A stretch of DNA of 64,000 nucleotides, taken from Lachnospiraceae bacterium (lineage in GTDB: Bacteria; Bacillota; Clostridia; Lachnospirales; Lachnospiraceae). Position 1 is the stretch's first letter. The number at the start of each line of letters is the position of its first letter. Made by a program: the position numbers and the translations under genes. The DNA lies in contig JAETTM010000003.1 of the NCBI GenBank assembly GCA_021769135.1, forward strand, positions 1 through 64,000. Direction: 5' to 3'. Positions 43,631-61,653 of the stretch are shown piece after piece. The notes under the pieces were generated by a model. That model saw only the letters and a program-made list of their open reading frames with translations, was not told the origin of the DNA and ran no database searches.

Positions 43631-43641
43631 ATTCTCTATCA

Positions 43642-43715
43642 TAGCGAGAGGGGGACTTGAACCCTCGACACTACGGGTATGAACCGTATGCTCTAGCCAG
43701 CTGAGCTATCTCGCC
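43642..43715 (-). tRNA. tRNA-Met (anticodon CAT), elongator type
   Basis: A 74-base cloverleaf with acceptor GGCGAGA/TCTCGCT (one G-U pair), D arm GCTCAGCTGGCTAGAGC, anticodon stem TACGG/CCGTA with loop TTCATAC and T arm GGGTTCAAGTCCC. It lacks the three G-C pairs of initiator tRNA in the anticodon stem, so it is elongator Met; tRNA-Ile with a modified CAT is less likely. No CCA is encoded. Confidence 0.92.
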
Positions 43716-43747
43716 ATATAATCTCCCACCGGATATCCGGTAAGAGA

Positions 43748-43820
43748 TGGGACCTATAGGGCTCGAACCTATGACCCTCTGCTTGTAAGGCAGATGCTCT
43801 CCCAGCTGAGCTAAGATCCC
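43748..43820 (-). tRNA. tRNA-Val (anticodon TAC)
   Basis: A 73-base cloverleaf with acceptor GGGATCT/AGGTCCC, D arm GCTCAGCTGGGAGAGC, anticodon stem TCTGC/GCAGA with loop CTTACAA and T arm AGGTTCGAGCCCT. Discriminator A, no encoded CCA. First gene of the two-tRNA operon. Confidence 0.96.
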
Positions 43821-43855
43821 ATATGAGTGGGCTGCTTTCCGCAACCCGCTCTGCT

Positions 43856-43885: not shown

Positions 43886-44018
43886 CAACTTTTTTTAAAT
43901 TTTAAAAAAATTCTGGCTGGCTGGACTTTTGTTTTGCAAATTACTTTATTTAACTCCACTGTTTTACATTACTCTAATTATGATACCCGTACACTTTATT
44001 TTAATTTAGGAGAGGAAC

Positions 44019-44411
44019 ATGGACATAAACTTCAAATTAATCGGGAAACGGATTCAAGAAACCCGCACCCAGCATGGATTATCGCAGGCAGCGCCTGCAG
44101 AACTAACTGAACTTTCAACTTCTTACATAAGTTACATAGAAGCTGCGAAAAAACAGCCAAGCCTCACATCATTAATCCAAATATCAAATACCCTGGGCTT
44201 GACAGTAGACGAATTGCTATGCGGCAACCAGCTCCACAACCCAACAGATTATCAGACGGATATCGATCTGCTTATGGCAGATTGTACCTCCCGTGAGAAA
44301 CGTTTTATTTATGAACTTATTTTAAGGGCAAAGCAGATTCTCCGGGAGAACGAATGGGTTCTGATAGAACATGATAAACTTAAAGAAATCCAAAAAAATA
44401 CTTCTAATTGA
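44019..44411 (+). CDS. XRE-family helix-turn-helix regulator
   Basis: A 130-residue regulator. The HTH (about 8-62) contains IGKRIQETRTQHGLSQ, then STSYISYIEAAKKQPS and ISNTLGLTVDELL. The C-terminal 65 residues are a helical tail. A TAGGAGAGGAAC site precedes the ATG. It lies 100 bp upstream of the serine recombinase on the same strand and is probably the control gene of that cassette. Its AT-rich codons match the cassette rather than the flanking housekeeping genes. Confidence 0.9.
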   Translation: MDINFKLIGKRIQETRTQHGLSQAAPAELTELSTSYISYIEAAKKQPSLTSLIQISNTLGLTVDELLCGNQLHNPTDYQTDIDLLMADCTSREKRFIYELILRAKQILRENEWVLIEHDKLKEIQKNTSN

Positions 44412-44512
44412 TTTCCAAATATGACTGGCGGTTAATCTCTTGACTGCTGCTCTATTTTCATTTTTTCCAGAAAATATATAATTTCTATATCAAAGCGAAA
44501 GGCGGTATTCAA

Positions 44513-46387
44513 ATGATTGAATCGGAACACGCAAAAACTGTTCAAGAGCAGAAAGCAAAGATTCGGGAGAGATATAAAGGCATTGATACAAGCGAACTGG
44601 AATGCGTTCCTGCAAAAGAAGCGGAAGACGTATTTAAAAGCAAACGCGAACTTCATGTTGCCGTATATGCGAGAGTGTCCACCGATGACCCCCGTCAGAC
44701 TTCCTCATACGAATTACAAAAAAACCACTATTTGGACGTAATAAGCCGAAATCCAAATTGGAAACTGGTTGAAATCTATGCAGATGAGGGAATATCAGGT
44801 ACTTCCCTCATGCACCGTGACGCATTTAAACGCATGATTGAAGATTGCGAAAAAGGAAAAATCGATTTGATTATTACCAAAAGCGTCTCCCGGTTTGCCC
44901 GCAATATCATTGACTGCATTGGATATGCCAGGGAACTGCAGGCGATGACGCCTCCCGTTGGGATATTCTTCGAAGCGGAAAATATACACACTTTCAATCC
45001 CAACAGTGAAATGACCCTTTCTTTTATGGCTGCAATGGCACAGGAAGAAAGCCACAATAAAAGCGAGATTATGAATGCCTCTATTGAGATGCGCTTCCGT
45101 AGGGGTATTTTCCTTACCCCACCGCTTCTTGGTTATGACCTCAATGAAAAAGGCGAGCTTGTAATCAACGCAGACGAAGCAAAAACTGTCCGCCTGATTT
45201 TTTATATGTATCTGTCTGGCAGTACGTGTCAGGACATTGCAGATACCCTGACCGAATTAAAACGCCCAACCAAAAAGGGCAACATTACATGGTCGGCCGG
45301 AAGTATTTTACGTATTCTTCAAAATGAACGGCACTGCGGGGATGTCCTGTCACGGAAAACCTGGACTCCTAACTACCTAAACCATAAATCCAAAAAGAAT
45401 AAGCAGAACCGGAACCAGTACAGAAAATACGGACATCATGAAGCGATTATTTCCAAAGATGATTTTATTGCCGTACAAAGGCTAATCCGGAATGCCCGGT
45501 ATGGCGGGAAAGGCATCCTGCCGGAATTGAAAGTCATCACAGATGGAGCATTAAGAGGCTATACCTCCATAAACACAAGATGGGCAGGATTTAAAGCATA
45601 TGACTACATTTCCGCCTGCCAGAGTCTCCAACCTCCTGCCCTTCAAAATGATTCCAGCGAAGTTAATGCGCAGGCCGGCGAATTTGACCTTAGAGGTTTT
45701 GAAGTCACAAGATCTCAATTTATGAACCCAAAGGAAAAGCCTTATATCCTCATCACGCCAAAGATGCTCAAATTTAATATGAACAGCTTGTCAAGGATAC
45801 CTAATACCCAGTATGTGGAACTGCTCATAAATACTGTCAGCCAAACGCTTGCAGTCCGCTCCCGACCGGCAGATTCCGCAAATTCTGTTCCATGGGCGCA
45901 AATGAAGAATGGCAGGTTAGTTCCACGGGAGATTGCTTCTGCCGCGTTCATCCCCACCTTTTATGAATTGTGCGGTTGGAATCTGCATTATAAATATCGG
46001 TGTATCGGAGTTTCCCGGCATAAAGATAACGAAAATGTACTGCTTTTCAATCTATCGGAAACGGAAATTTTTATTCCAAAATCCGACTCCGGACAGGATA
46101 TAGACACTCCTGGCAACTCTCCCGCTCCATATTTTGGAGCAACAAAATCAGACATTATGGGATATCCCGCACCATGGTGCCATACTTTTGGAAACGGTTA
46201 TTATTATCAGGCACAGGCGGAAGAACTTGCCGCATTTACCCGCACCGGGGAATGGATTATTCAATCGGAAGGCATCACCTTCCATACAGAGCATCTGAAT
46301 GCCACGCCTCCGGACGAGGCGCTCCAGCACAGTGCGGAACTTATAAACTCTATGAGGGTTGAAGACAAAAATGAACTCACTATCTGA
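44513..46387 (+). CDS. large serine recombinase with C-terminal accessory domain
   Basis: A 624-residue site-specific recombinase. The resolvase domain (about 48-195) has the catalytic Ser56 in AVYARVSTDD and ITKSVSRFARN. The recombinase domain (about 203-325) follows, ending with the HHEAIISKDDFIAVQRLI pattern. The usual Cys-rich zinc ribbon of integrases is missing after that. Instead residues 391-522 form a domain strongly similar to the next encoded protein (LLINTVSQTLAVRSR; LCGWNLHYKYRC). An AAAGGCGG site lies before the ATG. It may move this cassette, invert DNA, or have been adapted to another target. Confidence 0.9.
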   Translation: MIESEHAKTVQEQKAKIRERYKGIDTSELECVPAKEAEDVFKSKRELHVAVYARVSTDDPRQTSSYELQKNHYLDVISRNPNWKLVEIYADEGISGTSLMHRDAFKRMIEDCEKGKIDLIITKSVSRFARNIIDCIGYARELQAMTPPVGIFFEAENIHTFNPNSEMTLSFMAAMAQEESHNKSEIMNASIEMRFRRGIFLTPPLLGYDLNEKGELVINADEAKTVRLIFYMYLSGSTCQDIADTLTELKRPTKKGNITWSAGSILRILQNERHCGDVLSRKTWTPNYLNHKSKKNKQNRNQYRKYGHHEAIISKDDFIAVQRLIRNARYGGKGILPELKVITDGALRGYTSINTRWAGFKAYDYISACQSLQPPALQNDSSEVNAQAGEFDLRGFEVTRSQFMNPKEKPYILITPKMLKFNMNSLSRIPNTQYVELLINTVSQTLAVRSRPADSANSVPWAQMKNGRLVPREIASAAFIPTFYELCGWNLHYKYRCIGVSRHKDNENVLLFNLSETEIFIPKSDSGQDIDTPGNSPAPYFGATKSDIMGYPAPWCHTFGNGYYYQAQAEELAAFTRTGEWIIQSEGITFHTEHLNATPPDEALQHSAELINSMRVEDKNELTI

Positions 46388-47147
46388 AGCACAGGAAAAT
46401 AAAACAGTACAAAACACCCTTATGAAAAGGGAAATGGAGATTATACAGGATAATTCTTTCGGCTGTGACGGATTCCAAGTAGTCCGTGGAGAGTTTTTCT
46501 CCCATGTTTACGAACCCTGCATTACCTTCAACAACTACAAAGTATACGTTAATACCGCTTGCGTAAAAAAGCTTCCAGATACTGATTACATACAAATCCT
46601 GGTAAATCCCACAAAGAAAAAGCTGGCTGTACGTCCATGCCTGGAAGAGGACAAGGATTCTGTCCGCTGGTGCAGTGCAACCACAAAACGCTCCCCAAAG
46701 TAAATTACATGCCCTGTATTCTTTGCCAAAGTAATAAGCCTGATGGGATGGAATCCGGATTACCGTTACCGCCTCGTTGGAAAGCTAATCCAATCTAATG
46801 ATAAGTTTCTCTTTGTATTTGACCTTGATGCCCCGGAAATATTTGTCCGTACCATAAAAGATGGGAAAAAGCCGCAATCATCCCGGACTCCATCCTATCC
46901 CGCAGAATGGAAGTACCAATTTGGTATCCCCTCAGACGAACATCAAAAATCATTGCGGATAGATATCTTTAATGAATATACCGTGTTCAGCATGCAGGAA
47001 AAACCTGCCAAAACACCAAAAACCAAAGAAAGAGAGGAACCGGAGTATGGAAACCAAACAGAATACGCTGCCCCAGGCATTGCGTGTTGGTTTCCTATGG
47101 ATGAGGCTGTTCCCGTGGAATATGCCACATTGAACGGAGGGATGTAA
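46371..47147 (+). pseudogene. paralogue of the recombinase C-terminal domain, split by an in-frame stop
   Basis: One frame of about 258 codons interrupted by a single TAA at 46701-46703. The first part (to 46703, 110 residues) contains CDGFQVVRGEF and ILVNPTKKKLAVRPC. The second part (from about 46704; a Met at 46743) contains LMGWNPDYRYRLVGK and FVFDLDAPEIFV. Both align in order with recombinase residues 391-522, and the stop falls where the recombinase has Glu473. The second part extends with a Pro/Lys/Glu-rich tail. It could be a recent nonsense mutation, two separate proteins, or stop readthrough. The start at 46371 overlaps the recombinase end by 17 bp. Confidence 0.7.
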
Positions 47148-47148
47148 T

Positions 47149-47439
47149 ATGGAATTGCATTATGGACCAACTTTAAAATTTGATGAGGAATTTCTATGTC
47201 TGATGCAGCCGCTTTCCGACAAAGAACTATCGGTTATGAAGCAAACTCTATCGGGCAACAGAATGCTACATTCCATCGCAGCATGGATGATTTATTACTG
47301 CAATATGTTCCAAATGTACACTTTGAGCAGATACCAATCAAAAACCTTACATCCAACCAAGAATACCAACGTAACCTGTCAATCAAGCACGTCCAAAAAG
47401 CGGCAGAGAACTTCGATCTCTACCAGATTAACCCTATAA
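47149..47439 (+). pseudogene. truncated or frameshifted N-terminal ParB-like fragment
   Basis: A frame with the best ribosome site in the area (GGAGGGATGTAAT before the ATG). It begins MELHYGPTLKFDEEFLCLM and PLSDKELSVMKQ, which resembles the beginning of ParB-type domains (L-x-x-E-x-x-x-L). It loses that character after about residue 35 and runs into the DUF6551 gene in a different frame. I read this as a decayed or rearranged start; programmed frameshifting into the next gene is an alternative. Confidence 0.4.
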
Positions 47440-48197
47440 AAGTCAGCCGAAGAGATGGGAAAAACTATGTATTTAATGGCCAGCATACCATTGAGATTAT
47501 TGCCACTGTCTCAGGCTCACGTGAAACTCCGGTCTGGTGCATGATTTATGATGACCTCGAATATCAGCATGAAGCCGACATTTTTGCAAACCAGATGAAA
47601 TATGTAAAGCCGCTGCTTCCTTATGAAACTTTCATGGCCAATATTGAAGCCGGGAGCGATAAGCACATACTTATCAATGACCTCGTGGAATCCTTTGGTT
47701 TGGAGATTGCCGCTTCTTCCGGACCGGGCGGAATCTGTGCCGTATCGACGCTGGAATATATTTATGATAAATACGGATTCCGGATGCTCGACCATGTGCT
47801 TACGCTCTGTATCGGTACTTGGGAAGGTTCCCCATCCTCTTTAAGCGGCAACATGCTCAAAGCAGTTGCAAGAATTCTATATGTATATGGCGATAATGTT
47901 AAGGATGATATGTTCAAGGAGAAACTTGGAAAAGTATCCATGAAAGAGATTACCCGCACCGCAAGAGAAAGGCGGGAAGGCTCCCTCGGATATGCCGAAA
48001 CACTGCTCATCCATTATAACAAGAAAATGCGGAATCAGTTACGGATGGGGTATCTCTATAACAAAAAGCCGTCACAACCAAACTATATAGAGGATTCCCG
48101 ACCCGAATCCAGAGAATCCAATCTGTCTGACGGCTCCCCATCCCCCGATTTTGAGCCAGGAAACGCCGGGCAGCTTGGCCTGTTCAATAACGATTGA
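47196..48197 (+). CDS. DUF6551/ParB-like protein
   Basis: A 333-residue protein of the DUF6551 (ParB N-terminal domain-like) family. From about residue 29 it shows LLLQYVPNVHFEQIPIKNL, YQRNLSIKHVQKAAENFD, INPIKVSRRDGKNYVFNGQHTIE and PVWCMIYDD, the ParB-like nucleotide-binding core. The middle (about 150-260) is helical. The C-terminal 45 residues are a disordered Ser/Pro/Asp tail. The start at 47196 has GAGGAA but its first 28 residues are another frame of the upstream ORF, so the true N-terminus is uncertain. It may bind DNA during cassette maintenance. Confidence 0.82.
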   Translation: MSDAAAFRQRTIGYEANSIGQQNATFHRSMDDLLLQYVPNVHFEQIPIKNLTSNQEYQRNLSIKHVQKAAENFDLYQINPIKVSRRDGKNYVFNGQHTIEIIATVSGSRETPVWCMIYDDLEYQHEADIFANQMKYVKPLLPYETFMANIEAGSDKHILINDLVESFGLEIAASSGPGGICAVSTLEYIYDKYGFRMLDHVLTLCIGTWEGSPSSLSGNMLKAVARILYVYGDNVKDDMFKEKLGKVSMKEITRTARERREGSLGYAETLLIHYNKKMRNQLRMGYLYNKKPSQPNYIEDSRPESRESNLSDGSPSPDFEPGNAGQLGLFNND

Positions 48198-48203
48198 GCC
48201 TCT

Positions 48204-48231
48204 CCTGCCGGAGAAAAACCGGCAGGAATCA
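48204..48231 (+). terminator. terminator at the end of the cassette
   Basis: CCTGCCGG/CCGGCAGG stem with a 7-base loop, followed by AATCATTTTT on the plus strand. It ends the cassette transcript before the convergent argS. Confidence 0.85.
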
Positions 48232-48251
48232 TTTTTACCGCTTTCCTGTTC

Positions 48252-50018
48252 CTACATCCTCTCCGGCGCCGAAAATCCCAGCAAATCAATGCAGGTCTCC
48301 AGAATATCCTTCGCCAGCAAAAGCAAGGCAATCCAGCCTTCTTTCTTTGCCTCGTCTTCTTCCGCCAGTATCTTCGTCTCATGGTAGAAGCGGTTAAAGG
48401 CATTGGCGATATCATAGATGTAAGCGCATACCTTATGGGGGGCGATTTCTTCATAAGCATTTTCTATCATTCCGATAAATCCGGCCAGTTCCAGCATTAA
48501 CGCTTTTTCCGGCTCGCTGCAGGCCGGCCGCAGGGCTGCAGCTTCCAGCCGCCCGCCCGCTTCTTTATATTTGGACAGAATGGATTTGATGCGCACAAGG
48601 GTATACAGGATATATGGGCCGGTATCCCCTTCCGAAGAGGTGAAGCGCTCAATATCGAAAATGTAATCTTTGGAAGCCTGGTTGGACAAATCCCCATATT
48701 TCACCGCTGAAAGCGCCACCACCTGGGCCGTCTGCCTCGCCTCTTCCTCCGGTACGGAGCGGTTCTGTATGATTTTCCCATACATCACTTCATTAATTTC
48801 ATTTATCAGGTATTCCAGGCGCATAACCCCGCCTTCCCGCGTCTTAAAGGGCTTGCCGTCCTTGCCGTTCATCGTTCCGAAGCCAAGGAATTTCAATTTT
48901 GTCTCTGGAGACACAAGCCCTGTCTTGCGCGCACAGCGGAAGACCTGCTCGAAATACAGTTCCTGGCGCTTGTCCACCACATAAATTATTTCATCCGGAT
49001 GATACTTTTCCATCCGTTCCTTAATCGTTGCCAAATCCGTAGTATTGTACAAGGATGCCCCGTCAGATTTCAATATCATGCACGGGGGGATTTCTTTCGT
49101 ATCCGTCTCCTCTTTCACGTCCACCACTAAAGCGCCCTCGCTGATATAGGTATGCCCGCCCGCTTTCATCTCTTCCACCATCTGGGGGATTAAATCGTGG
49201 ACATCGGATTCCCCTTTCCATAAATCGAACTCCACATTCAGTTTATCATAGTTTTTCTTAAGATCCGCCACCGACACCCGGATAATGTGGTTCCAAAGGG
49301 CGCGGTACCCCCTTACGCCGTTTTGCAGCTTAAAGGTGGCATCCATGGCCTTTTCCTTATACGCGCTGTCTTCTTTGGACTTCCCGCTGGCCGTGGGATA
49401 GATTTCTTCCAGTTCGGCAATGGTAAAAGGCGCTTCCTCAGGATATTCCCCGGTAAAGCTGTCATCAAAATATACCAGCTCCGGTTTCCTCTCCTGCAAT
49501 TCCGTGATAATAAGCCCCATCTGCAGCCCCCAGTCACCCAGATGGATATCCCCGATTACTTCATGGCCCGCATACCTGGCGATTCTCTTCACGCTTTCAC
49601 CGATAATGGCCGACCTAAGGTGCCCTACATGGAGGGGCTTAGCCACATTCGGCCCGCCGTAATCGAGCATGATTCTCTTTGCCTTTTCGGGCATTTCCAG
49701 CCCGAATTTATCGCTCTTGGACATGCCGTCCAAATATTCCTTCAAAAACTCAGGGCTTATTTTCAAATTCAAAAAACCCGGGGGCACCGCGCCCACTTCT
49801 TCGAACACTCCACTGCCTTCCAGTTCCTTCGCCACATCCTGCGCTATCATCATAGGGGCTTTCTTATAGCGCTTCGCCCCCGCCATCGCTCCGTTGCACT
49901 GATATTCGCACAAATCCGGACGGTTGGATGCAGTCACCTTACCCAGTTCCCCGTCATATCCCGCCGACTGGAACGCTTTCTTCATTTCTTCCGATATTAC
50001 TTCCAGAATTTTTTTCAT
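48252..50018 (-). CDS. argS: arginyl-tRNA synthetase
   Basis: A 588-residue class I synthetase. It has an N-terminal tRNA-recognition domain (about 1-100) and the active-site motif GGPNVAKPLHVGHLRSA, whose HVGH is the HIGH signature. The second class I motif is the variant GTMNGKDGKPFKTR instead of KMSKS, as in several arginyl enzymes. The DALR anticodon-binding domain is C-terminal (about 460-588), ending LLGFSAPERM. The ATG at 50018 has a GGAAAGGAAAG site. It faces the recombinase cassette. Confidence 0.97.
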   Translation of the reverse strand: MKKILEVISEEMKKAFQSAGYDGELGKVTASNRPDLCEYQCNGAMAGAKRYKKAPMMIAQDVAKELEGSGVFEEVGAVPPGFLNLKISPEFLKEYLDGMSKSDKFGLEMPEKAKRIMLDYGGPNVAKPLHVGHLRSAIIGESVKRIARYAGHEVIGDIHLGDWGLQMGLIITELQERKPELVYFDDSFTGEYPEEAPFTIAELEEIYPTASGKSKEDSAYKEKAMDATFKLQNGVRGYRALWNHIIRVSVADLKKNYDKLNVEFDLWKGESDVHDLIPQMVEEMKAGGHTYISEGALVVDVKEETDTKEIPPCMILKSDGASLYNTTDLATIKERMEKYHPDEIIYVVDKRQELYFEQVFRCARKTGLVSPETKLKFLGFGTMNGKDGKPFKTREGGVMRLEYLINEINEVMYGKIIQNRSVPEEEARQTAQVVALSAVKYGDLSNQASKDYIFDIERFTSSEGDTGPYILYTLVRIKSILSKYKEAGGRLEAAALRPACSEPEKALMLELAGFIGMIENAYEEIAPHKVCAYIYDIANAFNRFYHETKILAEEDEAKKEGWIALLLLAKDILETCIDLLGFSAPERM

Positions 50019-50104
50019 AGACACTTTCCTTTCCAAAATAAACCTTTTTCTTCACTTAACCAGTTCTTCGCCCGCTTTCGAGTCAACACTCCCGCCGCAA
50101 TCTA

Positions 50105-61423: not shown

Positions 61424-61653
61424 GCCCGCGGCAGTCATACTATGGGGTGTGGCTGCTCTGTTTTGGAGGGTAGATTTTCTTAACAGAAGCCTCAATAACC
61501 CAGGGAAAAGCAGCCACGGACGGCTGCTTTAGGAAGCATGGGCACGGATGCCCATTGCTTCCGGCCCGGTCGGTGTCAAAGCCTACACCTTCTGTTTAGA
61601 AAATCCCCTCCAAAACAATGCAGCCACACCCCATAGTATGACTGCCGCGGGCG
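61424..61653. repeat. 230-bp inverted-repeat element with internal hairpins
   Basis: Outer arms of about 65 bp (61424-61489 and 61590-61653) are nearly perfect, with the first 33 bases (GCCCGCGGCAGTCATACTAT and on) identical. The 100-base loop contains two more hairpins, AAAGCAGCC/GGCTGCTTT at about 61507-61530 and GGAAGCATGGGC/GCCCATTGCTTCC at about 61532-61562. It lies just beyond the end of the M14-like gene at 61671. It has no coding capacity. Confidence 0.8.

Follow-up and report, generated by a model that had tools for sequence, protein, structure and literature searches.

Why should a serine recombinase gene be followed by a second gene that repeats the C-terminal domain of the recombinase itself? 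The question is raised by a cassette at positions 44019 to 48231 of a 64,000-nucleotide stretch of DNA (the window; contig JAETTM010000003.1 of assembly GCA_021769135.1, positions 1 to 64,000) from a Lachnospiraceae bacterium. A sequence-only reading of the cassette had described a recombinase (rec), a following protein sharing its C-terminal domain (dom), a ParB-like DUF6551 gene and an XRE regulator. All of these homologies are upheld by the present analysis. In this study, we show that the genes belong to a conserved mobile-element gene set of Clostridia and their temperate phages, and that the window holds a decaying copy of it. The point of interest is the family, rather than the window copy. 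Loci (L) and genomes (G) are numbered where they have to be told apart.

The rec gene (44513-46387, plus strand) is an open frame of 624 amino acids, and its C-terminal residues 393-595 are homologous to the product of the next gene. BLASTP of this tail against the two pieces of the broken dom gene of the window gave E values of 5e-12 and 5e-10. Profile-profile comparison of 69 recombinases (68 from the 80 genome loci, plus that of the window) with 63 stand-alone dom copies picked as unbroken gave a probability of 100 (E 6.3e-39, 190 columns). A third copy of the domain is encoded by a further gene of the relatives, orf3, so that one module carries the domain once in cis and twice in trans. 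Since they are homologous, the rec tail and dom are expected to have a common fold. Predicted models are confident in the core of the domain (rec residues about 410-520, dom about 60-170) and poor in the tails. Neither Foldseek nor a hidden Markov model (HMM) search of PDB sequences gave a significant relative of known fold for the tail or dom, and Pfam, NCBIfam and PHROGs hold no significant family for the stand-alone dom protein. The pattern of strands and helices had suggested, by eye, an AbrB-like fold of the tail; neither the PDB-sequence HMM search nor Foldseek (best for dom E 5.5e-3, probability 0.23) gave a convincing match.

Intact relatives show a block in the order XRE-rec-dom-orf3-ParB-like-DUF6551, both in Clostridia genomes and in temperate phages. 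Among the best 80 of 102 confirmed genome relatives, rec is followed by dom in 78, orf3 in 64, a putative ParB-like gene in 69 and DUF6551 in 65, and is preceded by XRE in 70. Where at least 5 kb follow rec, all four following genes are present in 38 of 46 genome loci. The best 80 of 517 viral loci give much the same picture (dom 78, orf3 71, ParB-like 75, DUF6551 73, XRE 70). Stand-alone homologues of the domain thus exist, so that their absence, which would have told against the sequence-only reading, does not apply, and the combination of recombinase, domain and DUF6551, which had been called unusual, is the rule within this family. The dom profile matches 16 of 393 genomes of the class, including that of the window. 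Ten of the 16 have a dom match adjoining a match to the recombinase tail; among the remainder are several short proteins resembling orf3. One plasmid record carries the rec tail. We recognised no paper describing the arrangement, as judged from search listings. In 26 of the 80 viral loci (L187-L266) rec is preceded by a protein of about 200 amino acids related to the catalytic half. According to the alignment 25 of these 26 lack the catalytic serine, and the exception, L207, resembles a piece of a broken recombinase. Separately, L163, L165 and L168 make up a second subtype with a 720-amino-acid recombinase, a gene for 260 amino acids and a protein of about 800 amino acids of unknown kind; some of them have dom- or orf3-like copies, and one sits between phage tail and replication genes. 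One viral contig of 113 kb carries two module copies about 58 kb apart (L189 and L194), perhaps two related prophages.

As to its class, rec has a Resolvase domain (PF00239, residues 49-198) with the serine and arginines of the catalytic site, followed by a Recombinase domain (PF07508, residues 221-326, E 1e-23), as large serine recombinases do. Ser56, Arg54, Arg127 and Arg130, which we take to be the catalytic residues, are invariant across the 69 aligned recombinases. With the large serine integrases (phiC31, TP901-1 and relatives) rec shares these two domains, and Foldseek matches the rec model to solved integrase complexes over 294-375 columns, best in the catalytic half. Unlike them, rec gave no match to the zinc ribbon (PF13408, Zn_ribbon_recom) at E 1 in the Pfam search, in agreement with the sequence-only reading, and has in its place a different C-terminal domain with stand-alone paralogues. 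The integrases intA and intB of phages, used for comparison, do carry Zn_ribbon_recom. The catalytic half also matches the recombinases CcrA, CcrB and CcrC of the staphylococcal cassette chromosome (CcrB E 1.6e-28). Rec is not a member of these families, scoring far under the NCBIfam cut-offs (99.7 bits versus 900 for CcrB). The likeness extends to the organisation, the staphylococcal chromosome cassettes being serine-recombinase cassettes with varied cargo.

The fastest-changing part of rec is its own copy of the shared domain. Over 1953 locus pairs mean pairwise identity is 72% in the catalytic half, 35% in the rec tail and 53% in dom, and dom exceeds the rec tail in 98.7% of the pairs. A fast tail would fit a role in specificity, and it is possible that the shared domain sets the target or direction of recombination, as had been proposed. 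A tree of 73 copies (24 of the 56 loci with all three copies, and the window tail) was built from only 144 columns. In it the rec tails form one group (91/100; 89% of bootstrap trees) and the orf3 copies another (100/100); dom is not resolved as one group. The simplest reading would be a single old duplication history for rec tail, dom and orf3. The distances between tails are correlated with those between dom copies (r 0.68, with a permutation maximum of 0.21).

The two remaining gene products of the block following rec are ParB-type proteins, one of them putative. The label ParB-like of the fourth gene was assigned by eye. Its product has a weak resolvase-type helix-turn-helix (HTH) match in Pfam (E 0.0097), falls into a PHROGs family of unknown function and has no match in NCBIfam. 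The DUF6551 protein also matches a ParB-like PHROG. In the sections cited of PMC12704722, proteins of the ParB-CTPase fold with DUF6551 bound CTP or ATP in assay. The module resembles that system in having a DUF6551 protein; it differs in its recombinase, a word absent from the main text of that paper. Between XRE and rec lies a hairpin followed by a T-rich run (44417-44462, plus strand, in the window). Its conservation extends over 19 sequences, which include near copies; 8 of 11 pairs have changed on both sides, and TATAAT follows in 18 of the 19. The hairpin may end the XRE transcript or act as an operator. It is weaker in the window (-11.9 kcal/mol over 49 nucleotides) than in three relatives (-15.5 to -24.4 kcal/mol).

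The window copy itself is a relic, although rec is open and retains its catalytic residues. The dom gene (46374-47147, plus strand, start codon picked by eye) had been taken for an intact frame at 46371-47147. It is cut by an in-frame TAA at 46701-46703, a position occupied by Gln in 41 of the 63 unbroken relatives and by another residue in 22. Apart from dom and rec, nothing in the cassette matched orf3. The putative ParB-like gene is a stub (47149-47286, plus strand, its end placed by eye at the start of DUF6551 homology); tblastn with the L028 homologue matches 47149-47352 (35%, E 4e-11), and the stub runs into DUF6551. An intact cassette was rejected on these three grounds, and together with the weaker hairpin they make the window copy a relic, which should not be taken for a functional device. 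The dom gene is broken at other loci too, e.g. L071 and L065. At the left end of the cassette an XRE-family repressor-like protein of 130 amino acids is encoded at 44019-44411 (plus strand; Pfam HTH_3 E 3.7e-11, NCBIfam RstR-type match below cut-off). At the right end the homologous part of the DUF6551 protein occupies 47283-48197 (plus strand; PF20188, E 2.2e-29). The open reading frame (ORF) listed there runs from 47196 to 48197 and opens with other sequence, the DUF6551 homology beginning near 47280, about 28 residues in.

Comparison with other genomes of the genus defines the insert as the module by itself. Of 12 other genomes of the genus in which argS was matched, eight lack the module and have 33-152 bp between the tRNA genes and the end of argS. 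The tRNA side was unmatched in the other four, and three further genomes gave no argS match. The host flanks in the window are tRNA-Met and tRNA-Val on the left (43641-43821, minus strand, by ARAGORN; tRNA-Val 43746-43821) and argS on the right (48252-50036, minus strand, with Pfam arginyl-tRNA synthetase domains), which stands tail to tail with DUF6551 at 54 bp. Homology of the left flank to empty sites of other species in the genus extends to about 43903; the left boundary zone and XRE upstream region cover 43904-44018, with an approximate junction. Of the comparison with empty sites that the sequence-only reading had suggested as a way to the att sites, the outcome was empty sites in eight genomes and no located att site of rec; the exact junctions are unreadable because the spacer has diverged. 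The insert (43903-48252) has space for, and shows, only module ORFs. None of the nine genes common to Ca. Heliusviridae (DUF2800, DUF2815, polymerase, terminase, capsid genes and others), by which a Ca. Heliusvirales prophage would be recognised, was found in it, the rest of the genome not being included in that search. In the genome that the window comes from, the comEC frame is open over 766 amino acids. Elsewhere in the same genome, three serine recombinase frames stand in tandem (G000:C110:2846-6738), and the window also holds an Rfam TwoAYGGAY RNA at 61458-61618.

Does rec act by itself, or for another integrase? Twenty genomes, picked mostly for having no intA/intB pair nearby, were searched with intA at E 1e-20. 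Their rec contigs measure about 24 to 922 kb, with rec near a contig end in some (1.2 kb in G009). On 18 of the 20 rec contigs the search found no large serine recombinase besides rec, the exceptions being G742 (another within 10 kb) and G746 (96 kb away), and in four genomes it found none besides rec at all. Other large serine recombinases are likewise absent from 20 of the 80 viral loci. As no second one was found on 18 of 20 contigs, rec is not only a helper of intA/intB. Neighbours were scanned at 43 loci, chosen because they have no intA/intB of the Heliusvirales type close by; there was no random control, and the spans were unequal (149 of 159 left neighbours within 5.5 kb, 89 of 92 right neighbours within 3.5 kb); the family tables comprise the best 25 of 209, 68, 124 and 80 families. 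The 149 left neighbours include at least five C5 methyltransferases, three N6 methylases, three type I specificity proteins, two MspI-type enzymes and two Vsr proteins, as well as host genes such as aldolase and prmA. A tyrosine integrase domain occurs in four of the 149, in this set without a systematic search for such integrases. The 89 right neighbours include at least one C5 methyltransferase, one type III enzyme and two Fic proteins, and the housekeeping genes gatB, groEL and gcpE and an M50 peptidase. The flanks are thus unequal, restriction-modification lying mostly on the left and many housekeeping genes on the right. Two copies sit tightly between host genes, with gaps of less than 50 bp at both ends in L067 and of at most 115 and 54 bp in the window, and both are degenerate. 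Empty sites were also sought for L067 and L104, and the search gave none that was usable.

In phages the module commonly keeps company with other integrases. A dom match occurs in 20 GenBank phage records, 16 of them in the accession series PV0364xx; both of the two records checked are filed under Ca. Heliusvirales. PV036434 has the order ComEC fragment, XRE, rec, dom, orf3, ParB-like, DUF6551, intA and intB (opposite strand), lysis, tail and head, and replication. In a Kineothrix genome (G014), of the same genus as the window, the prophage G014:C1:288398-346441 (L152, L279, L280) lies in comEC, identified by Pfam Competence, and could be mapped to the base: on the uninterrupted comEC of G008 its two flanks have a 2-bp overlap, GG. 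A similar ACGGG was seen by eye ahead of ComEC at six other loci. Close to the two ends of the same prophage lie restriction genes and what looks by eye like a kinase gene. Phi1207.3 also enters comEC at a dinucleotide, GA, and has a tandem serine recombinase pair at one end (PMC4260502, in the sections cited); this pair is comparable to intA/intB in its position and comEC target. Phages with related intA gave no dom match at E 1e-5, among them Streptococcus phages with intA relatives at about 50% identity; no Streptococcus phage is among the 20 dom-positive records. In all five genome loci showing comEC within the fetched flank, at least two other serine recombinases (intA/intB) accompany it. 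We considered rec as the comEC integrase and rejected it. Because of the five comEC flanks, the intA phages lacking dom and the Phi1207.3 pair, the comEC reaction is best assigned to the zinc-ribbon pair intA/intB. Some Clostridia phages carry the module as an addition. Two further module-bearing elements abut a DprA C-terminal fragment (L160:5885-6268) and a 368-amino-acid Mg-chelatase (ComM-like) protein (L158:13812-14915), so that competence genes other than comEC may be interrupted as well.

What, then, is the module for? Its best reading is a hetero-oligomeric serine-recombinase module, which we regard as having about an even chance of being right. An intact module encodes rec, dom, orf3, the two ParB-type proteins and the XRE regulator, and most likely its proteins form one complex, the rec tail binds DNA and the reaction is the integration or excision of the carrying element. 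The subunits would assemble on DNA as one recombination machine, in which rec would cut and rejoin DNA, the variable rec tail together with dom and orf3 would recognise and bridge the recombining sites, and the ParB-type proteins would load or switch the complex with nucleotide. More tentatively, and with somewhat more doubt than belief, we picture a hetero-oligomer of dismembered domains, made up of the full enzyme, dom, orf3, in some phages a dead head-only subunit, and two ParB-type switches. Such a machine could be site-specific or target-selecting and would be regulated like a multi-subunit transposase and not like a single-protein integrase. Several observations weigh against a recombination module of this kind. 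The empty-site, junction and downstream-DNA comparisons yielded no att site, junction or excision product attributable to rec, no shared motif was seen by eye in the DNA downstream of DUF6551, and neither Foldseek nor the PDB-sequence HMM search returned a structure match backing DNA binding by the tail. The correlation of catalytic half and dom (r 0.64) is nearly equal to that of tail and dom, so specific co-evolution is not shown. At least two other large serine recombinases are present in 51 of the 80 viral loci, and the sole prophage mapped to the base, in G014, is in comEC with intA/intB. Restriction genes occur on the DUF6551 side too (e.g. G014, L086, L087). Finally, the module can lie on either side of the phage att site, as would also be expected of passive cargo: its DUF6551 side faces one way in G014 and apparently in G469, where the module is on the DUF6551 side of the site, whereas in the PV036434 type it is on the XRE side.

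In a different view the module is accessory cargo with a protective task, an anti-phage or superinfection-exclusion system that turns a recombinase and ParB-type switches against incoming DNA. It occurs in phages, in islands and alone, adjoins the phage att site, is optional in that phages with related intA exist without a dom match, and in several islands stands beside type I, II and IIG restriction genes, C5 methyltransferases and Vsr; its own XRE gene resembles control proteins among other HTH families in PADLOC, where the XRE matches are HTH families only. Yet the PADLOC library, which covers systems described by 2023, gave no match at E 0.01 to rec, dom, orf3 or the ParB-like and DUF6551 proteins, the invariant catalytic residues fit ordinary strand exchange, and the right flanks hold many housekeeping genes. 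We consider a defence role unlikely. A place in the early phage programme, that is a lytic-phase module serving genome circularisation, resolution or replication, controlled by a Cro/CI-like pair and persisting in chromosomes as a prophage remnant, seems to us improbable. It would account for the divergent XRE genes ahead of rec in many phages, for the decay of the window copy and for the nearest tree row of the window tail, that of L027, where intA/intB and a comEC flank are present. Against it, the related intA phages do without dom, some copies sit between host-like genes with no recognised phage genes within the fetched flanks, and the nine genes common to Ca. Heliusviridae, as given in the sections cited of PMC9226167, exclude the module.

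The sequence-only reading had itself offered a narrower explanation, in which dom is a recombination directionality factor that binds rec through the shared domain and switches integration to excision. The common domain, the position of dom directly after rec and its stronger conservation than that of the rec tail speak for it. Two stand-alone copies and two ParB-type genes, usually together, exceed the needs of a one-protein switch, and we know of no directionality factor that is paralogous to the integrase tail. We give this explanation little credence.

The value of serine integrases as tools lies in their working as single proteins, with one directionality factor as the only further need. 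If the hetero-oligomeric reading is true, a widespread family in which the enzyme is accompanied by paralogues of its head and tail and by ParB-type switches would be a different way to build and control a serine integrase. It would also suggest that the work of the zinc ribbon can be done by other tail domains. The module may account for the movement of restriction islands and of phages in gut Clostridia, or it may reveal an accessory system riding on them.

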